Positions 58,781-64,000 of a DNA stretch of 64,000 nucleotides are shown here, one piece after another (position 1 is the stretch's first letter; each line of letters begins with the position of its first letter). A program made the translations under genes and the position numbers. The notes beneath the pieces were generated by a model. That model searched no databases, was not told the origin of the DNA, and saw only the letters and a list, made by a program, of their open reading frames with translations. The stretch is from Cryobacterium gelidum (GTDB lineage: Bacteria; Actinomycetota; Actinomycetes; Actinomycetales; Microbacteriaceae), in assembly GCF_004403985.1 (NCBI RefSeq), contig NZ_SOHL01000020.1, forward strand, positions 1 through 64,000. The letters run 5' to 3'.

Positions 58781-60298
58781 GTGGATGCTAACGGTGGTAT
58801 CGAGATAGAACGCAAGTTTGACGTCGACGAACTGGCCGTGCTGCCTCCCTTGATCGACCTGCCGGGCGTGCAGGCCATCGCCGAGCCGGTGGTTCACGAC
58901 CTCGAGGCCGTCTATTTCGACACGAACGATCTCGTACTCAGCGCCGCACGTATCACGCTGCGCCGGCGTACCGGCGGCGACGACGCGGGATGGCACCTCA
59001 AACTGCCACAAAACGCCGGCCGTCGCCGTGAGATCCACGCGCCCCTCGGCCGAGACAGGCAGGGCGAAGCCGATGCCGTACCCGAGTCGCTCGCGCAACT
59101 CGTGCGGGTCTACGTGCGCGCCGCACCGCTCGTTCCCGTGGCACGCCTCACCACCATCCGCGTCGTGCATGCCCTGATCGGTGCGGGTGGTGAAACCCTC
59201 GCCGTGCTCTGCGACGATCGGGTGCAGGCCGAGCGGCTCGTTCACGAACCGGCCTCAGCAGCCTGGCGCGAATGGGAGTTCGAGCTCGTCGACGCACCGG
59301 AAGACCTGCTGGACGCGGGGCAGGCTGTGCTCGCGGTCGCCGGCATCCTCGTGTCAGGGCACGCGTCGAAACTGGCGCGTGCCCTCGGCGACCGGTTGAC
59401 TGCGGAATCGCCCCGGAATCGGCAGCGCCCGACGCCCACCGGACCGGCCGGGAACGTCCTACTGGCCAGCCTGGGCGAGCAGATCGGCGTCATTCGCGCG
59501 CAGGACCCGCGGATTCGCCAGCACACGCTCGGCTCCGTGCACGCGATGCGTGTCGCCTTACGCCGGCTGCGCTCGGTGCTGGCCACCTATCGATCCCTCG
59601 TCGACCCGACCGTCGTGCAACACCTCCGCACCGAACTCGGCTGGCTCGCCGCCGTGCTCGGCGGCTCCCGCGACGAGGAGGTGCTGCAACGCCGCCTCGC
59701 CGGCCTGCTCGACCGCGAGGATCCCGCAGTGCTGCTCGGCTCCATCCGCGACCGCCTGACGACCCGCTCCGCAGCGGATGCCGCCACCGCCCGACACACG
59801 CTCGTCGTCGCCCTCGACAGCCACCGCTACTTTCGGCTGCTCGACGCCCTCGACGCCCTCGCCGCCTCGCCGCCGTTCACGGCCACGGCCGGTCAGGACG
59901 CCCGCGTGGTCGTGCCCGCCCTGGTCACGAAGGAATGGAAGAAACTGCGCCGCGCCGTGCGCCGCGCCACCGGGACCGTGCCGGGGCCGGAACGTGACCT
60001 CGCCCTGCACGAGGTGCGCAAGCGCGCCAAGAGGCTGCGCTACGCGGCCGAGACGGCGCATCCGCTCAACCCGAAGCGTGCCGCGCGGGTGAGCGGATTC
60101 GCCCAGAAACTGCAGACCATTCTCGGTGACCAGCACGACAGTGTCATCGCCCGCGAGCGCCTGCTGCGCCGCGGCGGGGTCGACGCCTACCTTCGCGGCG
60201 AGAACACCTTCAGTTACGGCCGCCTGCACGCCCTGGAACAGCAGAAAGCAGCGGATGCCGAGGCTCTCTTCTGGAAGGCCTGGTCGCACCGCCCCTGA
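58781..60298 (+). CDS. CYTH and CHAD domain protein
   Basis: A 505-residue fusion. The N-terminal CYTH domain opens GGIEIERKFDVDE (the ExExK motif), typical of triphosphate-tunnel enzymes. The C-terminal CHAD domain (about 245-500) is helical and rich in histidine, arginine and aspartate, with VHAMRVALRRLRSVLATYR and ALHEVRKRAKRLRYAAETA. CHAD domains bind polyphosphate. The pair is probably involved in polyphosphate or triphosphate metabolism. It follows hmp by 26 bp and is likely read through. GTG start. Confidence 0.88.
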   Translation: MDANGGIEIERKFDVDELAVLPPLIDLPGVQAIAEPVVHDLEAVYFDTNDLVLSAARITLRRRTGGDDAGWHLKLPQNAGRRREIHAPLGRDRQGEADAVPESLAQLVRVYVRAAPLVPVARLTTIRVVHALIGAGGETLAVLCDDRVQAERLVHEPASAAWREWEFELVDAPEDLLDAGQAVLAVAGILVSGHASKLARALGDRLTAESPRNRQRPTPTGPAGNVLLASLGEQIGVIRAQDPRIRQHTLGSVHAMRVALRRLRSVLATYRSLVDPTVVQHLRTELGWLAAVLGGSRDEEVLQRRLAGLLDREDPAVLLGSIRDRLTTRSAADAATARHTLVVALDSHRYFRLLDALDALAASPPFTATAGQDARVVVPALVTKEWKKLRRAVRRATGTVPGPERDLALHEVRKRAKRLRYAAETAHPLNPKRAARVSGFAQKLQTILGDQHDSVIARERLLRRGGVDAYLRGENTFSYGRLHALEQQKAADAEALFWKAWSHRP

Positions 60299-60302
60299 CA
60301 GA

Positions 60303-61283
60303 TCAGCTCCAGAGCGCCACGTGCACCTTGGAGCCGCGCCGGGCGACGCCGCGTGATCCACCGGGGGCGAGCATCGCCGCGGTCGCCTCGGCGGTCGTGA
60401 CGAAACGTTGCAGGGTGCGCGCGGGGGTCGACGCCCGTCCGTGATCGAGGGTGCTCGCGCACCACAGCCCCGCGATCGGCGTATTCGGCACCGGCAGCAC
60501 CACGAGCGACCCGGCCGTGACCTCGGCCCGCACGATGTGCATGAACGCGAGCATGATCCCTTCGCCGGCGCGAACCGCAGCGAGGGCATCTGTTTCGCTG
60601 CTGAGCGGCACGATCTCCGGAACGCCGAGCGCAGAGGCAAGGAATGCTGCTGCCAGCCAGCTGCTCTCGGCCGTGAACTCTTCAACCCCGGCCGGACCGG
60701 TGAACCACGGCTCCCCCAGCAGGGCGGCGAGCGGCAACGACTGCTTCCGCTGGCCAAGCGGATGCCCCGGCGCGGCCACCAGCACCCGCTGGTAGCGCAA
60801 GAATGGCACCACTTCGAGCTGCGTTCCCTGCGGTGGCCGGGAGCCGAGAGCCACGTCGTAGGCATGGTCCTGCAACAGCGACCCGATGTCATCGGCGGAC
60901 TCGACCACCACGTCAATCCCGCCGGAGTGGACAGGAACCCGGCGGGTGAACGCGTCGAGCAGCCGGCCGGCCGCGTGTTCGGCGAAGCCCGCAGTGGCAA
61001 CGACGCGCAGGCACGCCGCGGACTCCGCGGCGTGCGAGACCTCCCAGCGCACCTGGTCGGCCAGGCCGACGATCTCCTGGGCGTGATCGGCGAGCGCCCG
61101 ACCGCCGGCCGTCAGGGCGATCCCCGACCCCGACCGCCTGACCAGGGCGTCCCCGAGGTCCAGGCGAAGCGCGGCGAGCGACGACGATACCGCCGGTTCG
61201 CTGATTCCGAGCACGGCCGCAGCGGCACGCAGCGACCCGAGGCGAGCCACGAGGGCGAAGGCCCTCAGCTGGTTCAGCGTCAT
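60303..61283 (-). CDS. LysR-family regulator (CutR-like)
   Basis: A 326-residue LysR protein from the ATG at 61283 (a GTG 6 bp upstream is possible). The N-terminal helix-turn-helix is LNQLRAFALVARLGSLRAAA and GISEPAVSSSLAALR. The substrate-binding domain follows (about 90-295). A LysR regulator (CutR) is divergent from the CO-dehydrogenase genes cutBCA in Mycobacterium. Here the same class of regulator sits near a CoxM-type gene (63336), so the role is inferred to be its control. Confidence 0.85.
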   Translation of the reverse strand: MTLNQLRAFALVARLGSLRAAAAVLGISEPAVSSSLAALRLDLGDALVRRSGSGIALTAGGRALADHAQEIVGLADQVRWEVSHAAESAACLRVVATAGFAEHAAGRLLDAFTRRVPVHSGGIDVVVESADDIGSLLQDHAYDVALGSRPPQGTQLEVVPFLRYQRVLVAAPGHPLGQRKQSLPLAALLGEPWFTGPAGVEEFTAESSWLAAAFLASALGVPEIVPLSSETDALAAVRAGEGIMLAFMHIVRAEVTAGSLVVLPVPNTPIAGLWCASTLDHGRASTPARTLQRFVTTAEATAAMLAPGGSRGVARRGSKVHVALWS

Positions 61284-61290
61284 TGTCACA

Positions 61291-61385
61291 GCTCATAACC
61301 TTTCGCTTAGGTCGATAGTGACAGCCATGGGAGTGCGGAGCAAGCTGCGGCCCACACCAGTGTCGCGCACCGATGCGCGGCGCCG
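61291..61385. repeat. Direct repeat A, regulatory region between LysR gene and SulP
   Basis: 95 bp starting GCTCATAACCTTTCGCTTAG and ending GCGCGGCGCCG; about 80 of 93 aligned positions match repeat B, with one 2-nt gap. It starts 7 bp upstream of the LysR start codon. It includes a GTGACA (61319-61324) and a GCGCA-N4-TGCGC palindrome (61365-61378), both with counterparts in B. Confidence 0.9.
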
Positions 61386-61400
61386 GTCACTCCGGCCTCG

Positions 61401-63140
61401 TCAGGCGTCCGTGTCCCACTGGGTCCCGTCGAGGTCGCCGCGCAGCGTTCCGGTGGCCTCATCGACAGCCTCTCCGACAGTGCCCGCGAACCGCTCGGGA
61501 GGAAACCGCCCGCTCAATCCGTAGTCACGCAGGTGATCTTTCACCGGGCCTTTCATCTCGGCAAAGACGAGCGTGATGCCGCGGGAAACCAGGAAATCGT
61601 CGAGTTCGAGCAGTTCCTCCACGGCGGTCGTGTCGATGTCGGTGATGGGCTCCGCCGCGAGGATGACCGTGTGTACCCCACTACCGGCAGCCGCGACCGT
61701 GACCCGCACATAGTCGTCGAAGATCCCCCCGTTGGCGAAGAAGAGCGGCGCGTCGAAACGAACGATGACGATGCCGGGTAGGCGTTCGCCCTCGGGATGC
61801 CGCGACAGGTCGTGGTAGCCGCGAAGACCGCGGATCCGGCCGAGTTCGGCCCGATATGGTTGCCAGGCCTGGCTGACGAATGCGCCGAGCGAGAGAATGA
61901 TTGCCACGACGATACCCTCGATCACGCCGACCACCAGCACCCCGAGAAAGGCCGCGAGCGAGAGCGTGGCATCGACTTTGTTCATGCGCACGAGCGCGAT
62001 GAACCCTTTCACATCGACGAGCCCGGCAGCGGCGACGATGACGACCGCGGCGATCGCCGCCGAGGGCAGGAAATCCGTGAGGCCGGGCGCGAATAGCATG
62101 AAGGCCAGAACGAGGGCGGCGCCGACGACTCCGGTGAGCTGGGAGCGAGCCCCCGCCTTCTCGGCGACGGGGGTGCGCGAGGACGACGCCGAGACGGGGA
62201 ATCCACCAAGCAGTCCGCTCGCGATGTTCGACGCGCCGATCGCCCTCATCTCCTGGCTGCCGTTGACATTCTCTCCGCCGCGGGCAGCAAACGATCGCGA
62301 AAGCACGGCGGTGTCGGCGAAGGCGATGAGCGCGATGCCCAGTGCCGGAGCCACCAAGGCCGCCGCATCCGCCCACTGCACACCATTGAGCGCGGGTGCG
62401 GGGAGGCCCCGGGGCAACGCACCGACGACGGGCAGGGCATCCCGCAGCCCGAAGACCGCGGTCACCGCCGTCGCGAGTACGACCGCCGCGAGCACGCCCG
62501 CCGCGAGCACGCCCGGAATCCGGGTTCTGCGCCACGACAGGACGACAATGACGGCCAGCGAACCGAGGCCGAAAAGCGTCGCGGTCAGGTTGACCTGACC
62601 CCCGGCGATTCCGACGAATATCCCGATCGCGTCGCGCAGCGCCGAGTCCGCTGAGATAGAGAAGCCGAAAAGGGTGGGCAACTGCGAAACGATGACCAGC
62701 ACGGCGAGAGCGTTGAGGTAGCCAACGCGGATAGGTTTGGAGAGCAGGTCGGTCACGAACCCGAGGCGCAGAATGCCACCAAGCGCGAGAATCACTCCGA
62801 CCATGATGGCCAGGAGCCCGGCGAGGCCGACCATGCGTGCATCATCGCCGAGAGCGAGAGGCACGATCGCGGCCGCGATGATCGGCGCCAGTGCCGAATC
62901 GGGGCCGAGCACGAGGATGCGCGACGGTCCGAAGACGGCATAGGCGGCCAGGGGAATGATCGTGGCGTACAGGCCCGATGCCGGCGGAAGCCCCGCCACC
63001 TCGGCATAGCCGATGCCGACCGGTATAAGTAGAGCGGTCAGGACGACGCCCGCACGCAGGTCGGGCAGTAGCCAGGCGCGCCGGTAGCCGAGCGCCCTAT
63101 CGATTCCCGGCACCCACCTCCGCAGCCACGCCGCAGCCAT
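61401..63140 (-). CDS. SulP-family inorganic anion transporter with STAS domain
   Basis: A 579-residue secondary transporter. The N-terminal ~420 residues contain about ten to twelve helices (AEVAGLPPASGLYATIIPLAAYAVFG and ASSSRTPVAEKAGARSQLTG-type loops). The C-terminal STAS domain (about 440-560) has ADIDTTAVEELLELDDFL-like sequence. SulP members carry sulfate, bicarbonate or molybdate-like anions; the substrate is not readable here. It is inserted, reversed, between the LysR gene and coxM, and flanked by repeats A and B. Confidence 0.88.
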   Translation of the reverse strand: MAAAWLRRWVPGIDRALGYRRAWLLPDLRAGVVLTALLIPVGIGYAEVAGLPPASGLYATIIPLAAYAVFGPSRILVLGPDSALAPIIAAAIVPLALGDDARMVGLAGLLAIMVGVILALGGILRLGFVTDLLSKPIRVGYLNALAVLVIVSQLPTLFGFSISADSALRDAIGIFVGIAGGQVNLTATLFGLGSLAVIVVLSWRRTRIPGVLAAGVLAAVVLATAVTAVFGLRDALPVVGALPRGLPAPALNGVQWADAAALVAPALGIALIAFADTAVLSRSFAARGGENVNGSQEMRAIGASNIASGLLGGFPVSASSSRTPVAEKAGARSQLTGVVGAALVLAFMLFAPGLTDFLPSAAIAAVVIVAAAGLVDVKGFIALVRMNKVDATLSLAAFLGVLVVGVIEGIVVAIILSLGAFVSQAWQPYRAELGRIRGLRGYHDLSRHPEGERLPGIVIVRFDAPLFFANGGIFDDYVRVTVAAAGSGVHTVILAAEPITDIDTTAVEELLELDDFLVSRGITLVFAEMKGPVKDHLRDYGLSGRFPPERFAGTVGEAVDEATGTLRGDLDGTQWDTDA

Positions 63141-63214
63141 GTCGTTCCTCTCCCGGACCCATCTCGGTGCCTGGCTGGTTCGTGCTCCGCGCGAAATAAA
63201 CAGCGAGGGCGCAC

Positions 63215-63307
63215 GCTCATAAGCTTTCGCTTAGGACGATGTTGACAGCCAACGGAGCGGGGAGCAAGCTGTGGCACGACAGTGTCGCGCAACGATGCGC
63301 GGCGCCG
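63215..63307. repeat. Direct repeat B, promoter region of coxM
   Basis: 93 bp matching repeat A. It has a perfect TTGACA (63242-63247) where A has GTGACA, and TAAG-N6-CTTA (near 63219-63233), a LysR-box-like inverted repeat. The GCGCA-N4-TGCGC palindrome (63287-63300) is conserved. It ends about 29 bp before the coxM start codon. Confidence 0.9.
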
Positions 63308-63335
63308 TGGAACCTTCTTTCGTGAGGAGAAGCCC

Positions 63336-64000
63336 GTGCAGATTCCGGCTCCGTTCGATTACGTTCGCGCCAGTTCGGTTGACAATGCCCTCGCCCTGCT
63401 TGATCGCCACGGGGCCGAATCCCGGGTGGTCGCCGGCGGACACAGCCTGCTTCCCATGATGAAGCTGCGCCTCGCCCGCCCGGACTGGCTCATCGATATC
63501 AACGACCTGTACGAGCTGGATTACTTGCTTGTCGATGGCCCCGTGTTACGCATCGGCGCGATGACCCGGCACACGACCCTGCTCGAATCCGACGACGTGC
63601 GGCGTCTGTTCCCCATCATCACCGACGCCGAACACGTCATCGCCGATCCGATCGTGCGCAACCGCGGCACCATCGGCGGCTCCCTCTGCCAGGCCGACCC
63701 GGCCGAAGACCTCTCCACGGTGTGCCACGTTCTTGACGCGGTGGCCGTCGTGCGCGGGCCGGCCGGCGAACGGATGCTGTCGATGGCCGAATTCCACCGC
63801 GGCCCCTACGAGACGGCCGTTGCCCAGAACGAACTGCTCATCGAGGTGCGCGTTCCCATTCGGGCCGGTTCCGGCAGCGCCTACGAGAAGGTGGAACGGC
63901 GCGTCGGAGACTGGGCTGTTGCCGCGGCCGGTGCGAGCGTGACGCTCGCCGCCGACGGCACGATCAGCAAGGCGACCGTCGGCCTCACCGCGGTCGGACT
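63336..64000 (+). CDS. CoxM-type FAD subunit of a xanthine/CO dehydrogenase, partial
   Basis: The first 221 residues of a molybdenum-hydroxylase medium subunit; it runs off the right edge. GTG start with GAGGAGA upstream. VVAGGHSLLPMMKLRLARP and RNRGTIGGSLCQADPAEDL bind FAD, with AGGHSLLP near 33-40 and TIGG near 112-115. KVERRVGDWAVAAAGASV follows. The wording is closest, as I recall, to actinobacterial CoxM/CutB proteins rather than generic xanthine dehydrogenase. Small and large subunits would lie to the right. Confidence 0.85.
   Translation, partial: MQIPAPFDYVRASSVDNALALLDRHGAESRVVAGGHSLLPMMKLRLARPDWLIDINDLYELDYLLVDGPVLRIGAMTRHTTLLESDDVRRLFPIITDAEHVIADPIVRNRGTIGGSLCQADPAEDLSTVCHVLDAVAVVRGPAGERMLSMAEFHRGPYETAVAQNELLIEVRVPIRAGSGSAYEKVERRVGDWAVAAAGASVTLAADGTISKATVGLTAVG

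Follow-up and report, generated by a model that had tools for sequence, protein, structure and literature searches.

The locus analysed here, from a cold-living Cryobacterium, raises two questions: how a transporter gene came to lie between a LysR-type regulatory gene and the genes for CO oxidation, and what the two similar control regions flanking it are for. The window, by which we mean the whole 64,000-nucleotide stretch of DNA, ends inside coxM and carries CHAD on the plus strand, LysR on the minus strand, repeat copy A, SulP on the minus strand, copy B and coxM on the plus strand, in that order, as assigned from open reading frames and Pfam (Table 1). LysR was read from a GTG at 61289 (an alternative ATG lies at 61283) and coxM from a GTG at 63336. 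Beyond coxM the contig continues with coxS, coxL, an XdhC-like gene, a MoxR-like AAA gene, a CoxE-like VWA gene, CoxG, a second XdhC-like gene and PIG-L, then SmpB, FtsX, FtsE and PrfB; the first XdhC-like gene, SmpB, FtsX, FtsE and PrfB were labelled by eye on the basis of their translations. Cryobacterium supplied the closest named relatives (seven of the 11 loci compared).

Table 1. Features of the LysR-SulP-coxM locus, in window coordinates.
Feature	Position	Strand	Basis
DNA source	Cryobacterium gelidum, GCF_004403985.1, NZ_SOHL01000020.1, positions 1-64,000	forward	
CHAD	58781-60298	+	Pfam
LysR-type regulator, CutR-like	60303-61289	-	Pfam HTH_1 and LysR_substrate; CutR match
Repeat copy A, control region directly upstream of LysR	61291-61385	+	alignment to copy B
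Operator box, copy A, CATAACCTTTCGCTTAGG	61294-61311	+	one of two zero-mismatch sites in the genome
Altered -35 element, copy A (GTGACA)	61318-61323	+	sequence
SulP family anion transporter with STAS domain	61401-63140	-	Pfam Sulfate_transp and STAS
Repeat copy B: operator, coxM promoter, start of coxM leader	63215-63307	+	alignment, conservation
Operator box, copy B, CATAAGCTTTCGCTTAGG, TAAG-n6-CTTA, T-n12-A	63218-63235	+	comparison of cox loci
-35 element of coxM promoter, TTGACA	63242-63247	+	conservation
Proposed -10 element, CAAGCT, 17 bp after TTGACA	63265-63270	+	position, conservation; inferred
Leader hairpin GCGCA-ACGA-TGCGC	63287-63300	+	predicted in coxM leader
coxM, CO dehydrogenase medium subunit	63336-64000, leaves window	+	Pfam FAD_binding_5 and CO_deh_flav_C

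An AYXCSFR motif in coxL is the mark of form I CO dehydrogenase. The coxL gene of this contig, which lies beyond the window, passes the equivalog model TIGR02416 (1394.7 bits, cut-off 991.15) and its translation contains AYACSFR, and by these two sequence features the CO dehydrogenase at the locus is of the form I, aerobic type. The best match of the LysR protein in the PDB was 9VVU, followed by 9VVT (E 3.5e-48, residues 3-328). Both entries are CutR of Mycobacterium sp. JC1, described as an activator of the CO dehydrogenase genes of that organism (PMC12609908). The two proteins share 112 of 293 aligned residues over the first three alignment blocks, and three of the four named ligand-site residues of CutR are kept (Y164, E204 and W269); S97 is replaced by threonine, and A30 of CutR by proline. 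With a full-length match that is closest to CutR, the LysR protein classes as CutR-type. Regulators of this type are rare, being present in 9 of 398 genomes of the family (that of C. gelidum included) and in 10 of 57 of the genus.

CutR sites in JC1 are reported as two inverted repeats of the form TTAAG-n6-CTTAA, of the T-n12-A type, upstream of cutR and of cutB, and for other mycobacteria that have a single CO dehydrogenase copy, cutR is described as lying upstream of orf13 (PMC12609908). The window has in common with the published cutR/cutBCA system a LysR-type regulator of CO dehydrogenase, a T-n12-A inverted repeat, and a site upstream of the regulator gene as well as one upstream of the medium subunit gene (PMC12609908). 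However, IR1 and IR2 of JC1 are given as about 180 bp apart, with a CRP site present (PMC12609908), whereas the sites here fall in duplicates of 93-95 bp separated by 1.9 kb that include a transporter gene, and one region serves both genes in most relatives.

The first-pass annotation had described a direct repeat of about 93 bp matching at some 80 of 93 positions, and its coordinates proved exact: 81 of 95 aligned columns are identical (85.3%, E 4.0e-24). The blocks it listed as shared are also present, including GTGACA in copy A against TTGACA in copy B. The edges of the repeat are sharp, since ungapped agreement outside it falls to two of ten bases on the left and two of ten on the right. 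It had been considered that the repeat might be widespread in the genome as a generic element, but a search of the whole assembly (3,468,075 bases) recovered copies A and B only. The same annotation took the divergence of the copies, about 14%, to suggest that the event is not recent or that the copies came from different lineages, and on age we agree as to direction; two copies are likewise present in C. ruanii and C. luteum. Three parts can be distinguished within the repeat: an operator box, a promoter core and a leader with a hairpin. An Rfam search of 60000-64000 gave no match up to E 1.

The operator box follows the consensus CATAAsCTTTCGCTTAGG in both copies and contains an inverted repeat, which is TAAG-n6-CTTA in copy B and TAAC-n6-CTTA, with one imperfect arm, in copy A. 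Copies A and B hold the only zero-mismatch boxes in the genome; a further ten matches have two to three mismatches each, and a reversed-pattern control returned 12 matches in all. Comparison of 18 cox loci shows that the box is present with 0-2 mismatches in all 13 that carry this LysR gene, whereas the five LysR-less loci of the C. gelidum clade (G009, G068, G035, G074 and G078) all have 8-9 mismatches, within the range of 5-10 obtained from 900 shuffled upstream regions. The LysR-bearing loci are those of eight clade members, G017, G067, Glaciihabitans, Diaminobutyricibacter and Arthrobacter, and in two-copy genomes the box at coxM was scored. The association gives a Fisher p of 1.2e-4, for loci that are related and represent about four loss lineages in the clade; G003, which has CHAD and HMP without LysR, is a possible extra one. 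Four further genomes of the family with the LysR gene have the box at three mismatches, with the qualification that two of the six other-genus loci in the family survey apparently repeat the Glaciihabitans and Diaminobutyricibacter loci. Another 16 LysR-less cox loci of Cryobacterium have 7-10 mismatches; no CHAD, HMP, SulP or SmpB gene was seen in the fetched stretch of 15 of them, so that these 15 loci are at another place or have been reordered, and a box may never have been present in them.

The joint loss of box and regulator across loci is good comparative support for the box as the operator of this LysR. This agrees with the earlier proposal that the regulator may bind two sites, one at its own promoter and one at coxM, both of which are zero-mismatch boxes. 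The same co-loss points, though only indirectly, to the LysR protein as a putative box-binding activator of the CO dehydrogenase genes, and the box would then be an operator, defined at sequence level, of a CutR-like regulator of aerobic CO oxidation from beyond the mycobacteria. The loci from which both have gone amount to natural knock-outs, which make the regulation directly testable. All five LysR-less clade loci retain coxL and the same TTGAC-CAAGC core, and their cox operon seems to live without this LysR, which weakens the step in which LysR is a needed activator.

The coxM promoter core proposed in copy B, TTGACA-N17-CAAGCT, rests on conservation, because a strict consensus scan of 61200-63400 for sigma-70 promoters and terminators reported neither. 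TTGAC is found in all 18 coxM upstream regions of the box comparison and in the 16 further Cryobacterium cox loci. Separately, the LysR-less promoters of L138-L153 carry CACTAT in 12 of 16 cases, against CAAGCT or CAGGCT in the LysR-linked promoters of the clade; the idea that a better -10 element replaces the activator fails for the five LysR-less clade promoters, which keep CAAGC. A second hairpin, CTTCTT-TCGT-GAGGAG at 63314-63329, is predicted in the coxM leader and covers the ribosome-binding site. When 34 coxM leaders were folded whole the mean z was -0.95, with 19 below -1, and several of the more distant leaders were no more stable than shuffled sequences.

The two copies have fared differently in the four two-copy genomes. 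The -35 element of copy A is altered in each (GTGACA twice, CTGGCA and TTGGCA), so that TTGACA is absent from copy A also in C. ruanii, C. luteum and PH31-O1, and in the last two copy A is recognisable over 54-58 bp only. Copy B in these genomes keeps TTGACA and is recognisable at 85 to 93 of 93 positions, and the operator box is intact in both copies. We infer that copy A has kept what LysR needs and copy B what coxM needs, in which case the locus would be an example of a divergent control region divided between two copies. What counts against such a division of labour is that the right part of copy A, for which no use is evident, is undecayed in the window and in C. ruanii: of the rightmost 33 bases, 30 agree with copy B in the window, and copy A is 90.5% identical between the two genomes.

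How SulP came to lie between the copies can be approached through the relatives. LysR and coxM on either side of a single control region, without SulP, are found in Cryobacterium flavum, C. aureum, PH31-L1, Y82, G017 and G067, and likewise in a Glaciihabitans MAG, Diaminobutyricibacter, Arthrobacter SF27 and four further genomes of the family, and this is the common form of the cox cluster. The first-pass annotation had supposed that an arrangement of this kind was split by a segment carrying SulP. The arrangement is indeed common, but the invasion is not supported, since relatives show what the annotation had itself named as refuting, namely SulP at this place without the repeats. Outside the clade 23 genomes have SulP at 75% identity or more; loci were fetched from 12, and in all 12 the gene occupies the same interval with no repeat, beside HMP, CHAD or IMP, and with SmpB on its other side within the stretch in 11 (the exception is G025). 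SulP at these loci shows 74-84% identity, and unlike the window they have no LysR, repeat or cox genes there; coxL is elsewhere in nine of the 12 genomes and absent from three. Three additional SulP copies, in the clade members PH31-O1 (G013), Y82 (G020) and G035, are in other places. Vertical descent was not rejected in the SulP tree (p-AU 0.49 and 0.29). We conclude that SulP is probably an old resident of the CHAD-SmpB interval and not an insert.

The explanation that we prefer, with a probability of about 0.64, is a duplicated CutR-type control region split between LysR and coxMSL, with activation via copy B, SulP as a resident and the gene order produced by recombination. In the usual cox cluster one region serves both divergent genes, LysR and coxMSL. 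Copy A would have stayed with LysR, serving the regulator's own control; by sequence it has lost the consensus -35 element found at coxM, and the copies of C. luteum and PH31-O1 have lost the right part as well. Copy B would have remained at coxM; by analogy with CutR, the regulator bound there, immediately in front of the -35 element, most likely switches on coxMSL. The cox cluster would have come into the interval of the long-standing SulP, and recombination of the SulP locus with a LysR-control region-cox locus, which is probably the origin of the LysR-A-SulP-B-coxM order, would have left LysR and copy A on one side of SulP and copy B and the cox genes on the other.

It is unlikely, although this alternative keeps some weight, that SulP was inserted or re-inserted into an intact LysR-control region-coxM locus and that the control region was duplicated in the event. 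The wide occurrence of the SulP-less form would fit such an insertion, as would the single control region of SulP-less, LysR-bearing clade members, which by eye is nearer to copy A at several places, and the best SulP tree, which places the clade inside the G006 group without support. In G067 and G003 the cox genes adjoin CHAD and there is no SulP match at E 1e-60, which counts against residence of SulP throughout and makes its return into a SulP-less locus possible. Against insertion stand the repeat-free residents and the vertical descent described above, and with SulP filling 61401-63140 of the interval 61386-63214, a transposase gene could not be accommodated. Losses are moreover visible as scars in G009, G010 and G032. 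Remnants of the LysR 3' end remain there between CHAD and SulP, identical at 89 of 104, 84 of 103 and 90 of 104 bases, respectively, with scores of 111-134 against a best of 33 from 300 shuffles, and remnants of the CoxG 3' end precede XdhC in G010 (85 of 100) and G032 (60 of 69). By sequence these are marks of later loss, and SulP, LysR, or LysR together with coxMSL have each gone from relatives. G010 and G032 have neither a trace of copy B nor, at E 1e-250, a coxL match; coxM to CoxG are deleted from both loci (L078 and L079), which thus bear the scars of lost CO oxidation genes.

Slightly less probable still is a tandem duplication of SulP-LysR-control region with subsequent loss of one copy each of SulP and LysR, which would yield the swapped order with two control regions. 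Same-direction repeats and a swapped order would both be explained in this way without an inserted element, much as tandem duplication-random loss, in the form described for animal mitochondria, could reorder genes and leave a second control region behind. Unlike that model, however, the window locus shows no intermediate or relic. No intermediate order, and in particular no SulP-LysR-control region-coxM order, was seen among the loci mapped, and no LysR or coxM remnant was found next to the copies, where scores as high as those of the candidate relics came from 416 and 498 of 500 shuffles, and in C. luteum from 446 of 500.

A further alternative leaves the history aside and holds that SulP, too, is under the control of copy B and would form with coxMSL a LysR-controlled divergent pair serving CO oxidation, with SulP supplying molybdate, sulfate or bicarbonate; we regard it as quite improbable. 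Control of SulP by copy B is itself possible, because the box lies between the divergent genes, 77 bp upstream of the SulP start, and SulP has no internal stop in any of the five genomes with the SulP-B-coxM order. Yet SulP also stays open where the box is gone (G009 and G068) or the cox genes are gone (G010 and G032). A survey of 57 Cryobacterium genomes, that of C. gelidum included, in which SulP was scored at at least 75% identity and the counts were made by hand, found SulP in 31, coxL in 31 and both in 21, so that ten of the 31 SulP genomes lack coxL and ten of the 31 coxL genomes lack SulP. Although Pfam Sulfate_transp and STAS are matched, SulP scores below the cut-offs of all three NCBIfam models that it approaches (TIGR00815, 349.7 of 380.45 bits; DauA, 111.8 of 614; BicA, 66.2 of 880), leaving its substrate unassigned by these curated models. 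The link to CO oxidation through bicarbonate or molybdate/sulfate supply, raised speculatively in the first-pass annotation, finds no support in this analysis. SulP probably has its own promoter and is probably a neighbour of the CO-oxidation pathway and not a part of it. A related view, to which we give marginally less credence, is that duplication of the operator put the resident SulP under the CO-oxidation regulator with control of LysR and coxMSL unbroken, and that the direct repeats then served as a recombination handle for the loss of SulP in relatives. Transposon insertion with target duplication, which would call for a transposase or IS ends and a short target repeat, finds no support in the gene content of the interval or in the repeats, which are 93-95 bp long at 85% identity.

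In the rpoB tree the three full merged-order genomes fail to group as a clade (p-AU 0.012), and the presence of SulP needs three changes among 14 genomes (G015 not counted and G078 not in the tree), and therefore the locus has changed several times or has been exchanged between species; repeated loss and exchange look alike here. In the LysR tree the full merged-order genomes group with PH31-O1 (95/94), and a coxM clade test gave p-AU 0.067 for the five SulP-B-coxM genomes and 0.16 when G078 was added. The CO-oxidation locus has been joined, split and lost among closely related Cryobacterium. A TerC-family gene, identified by Pfam, lies beside CHAD in C. luteum, C. aureum, G068, G035 and G074 (L036, 6585-7772; L080, 9688-11133, minus strand) and is 93-100% identical to that of G035; at these loci LysR is absent from G068, G035 and G074, and SulP from C. 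aureum, G035 and G074.

PH31-O1 (G013) has both repeat copies, with starts 104 bp apart and no SulP between them. Since the LysR tree places it as sister to C. luteum (100/99), SulP was probably lost from its cox locus. A SulP remnant in its spacer is suggestive only: of seven targets, three aligned at the same SulP codons and were equalled by 4, 5 and 2 of 300 shuffles, but 187, 79, 73 and 69 shuffles equalled the remaining four, the aligned place varied against all 32 SulP sequences, and a profile search gave 0.7 bits. PH31-O1 carries another SulP gene (79%) about 16 kb away on the same contig (L083, 8125-9828), which groups with that of G077 and is perhaps a later gain.
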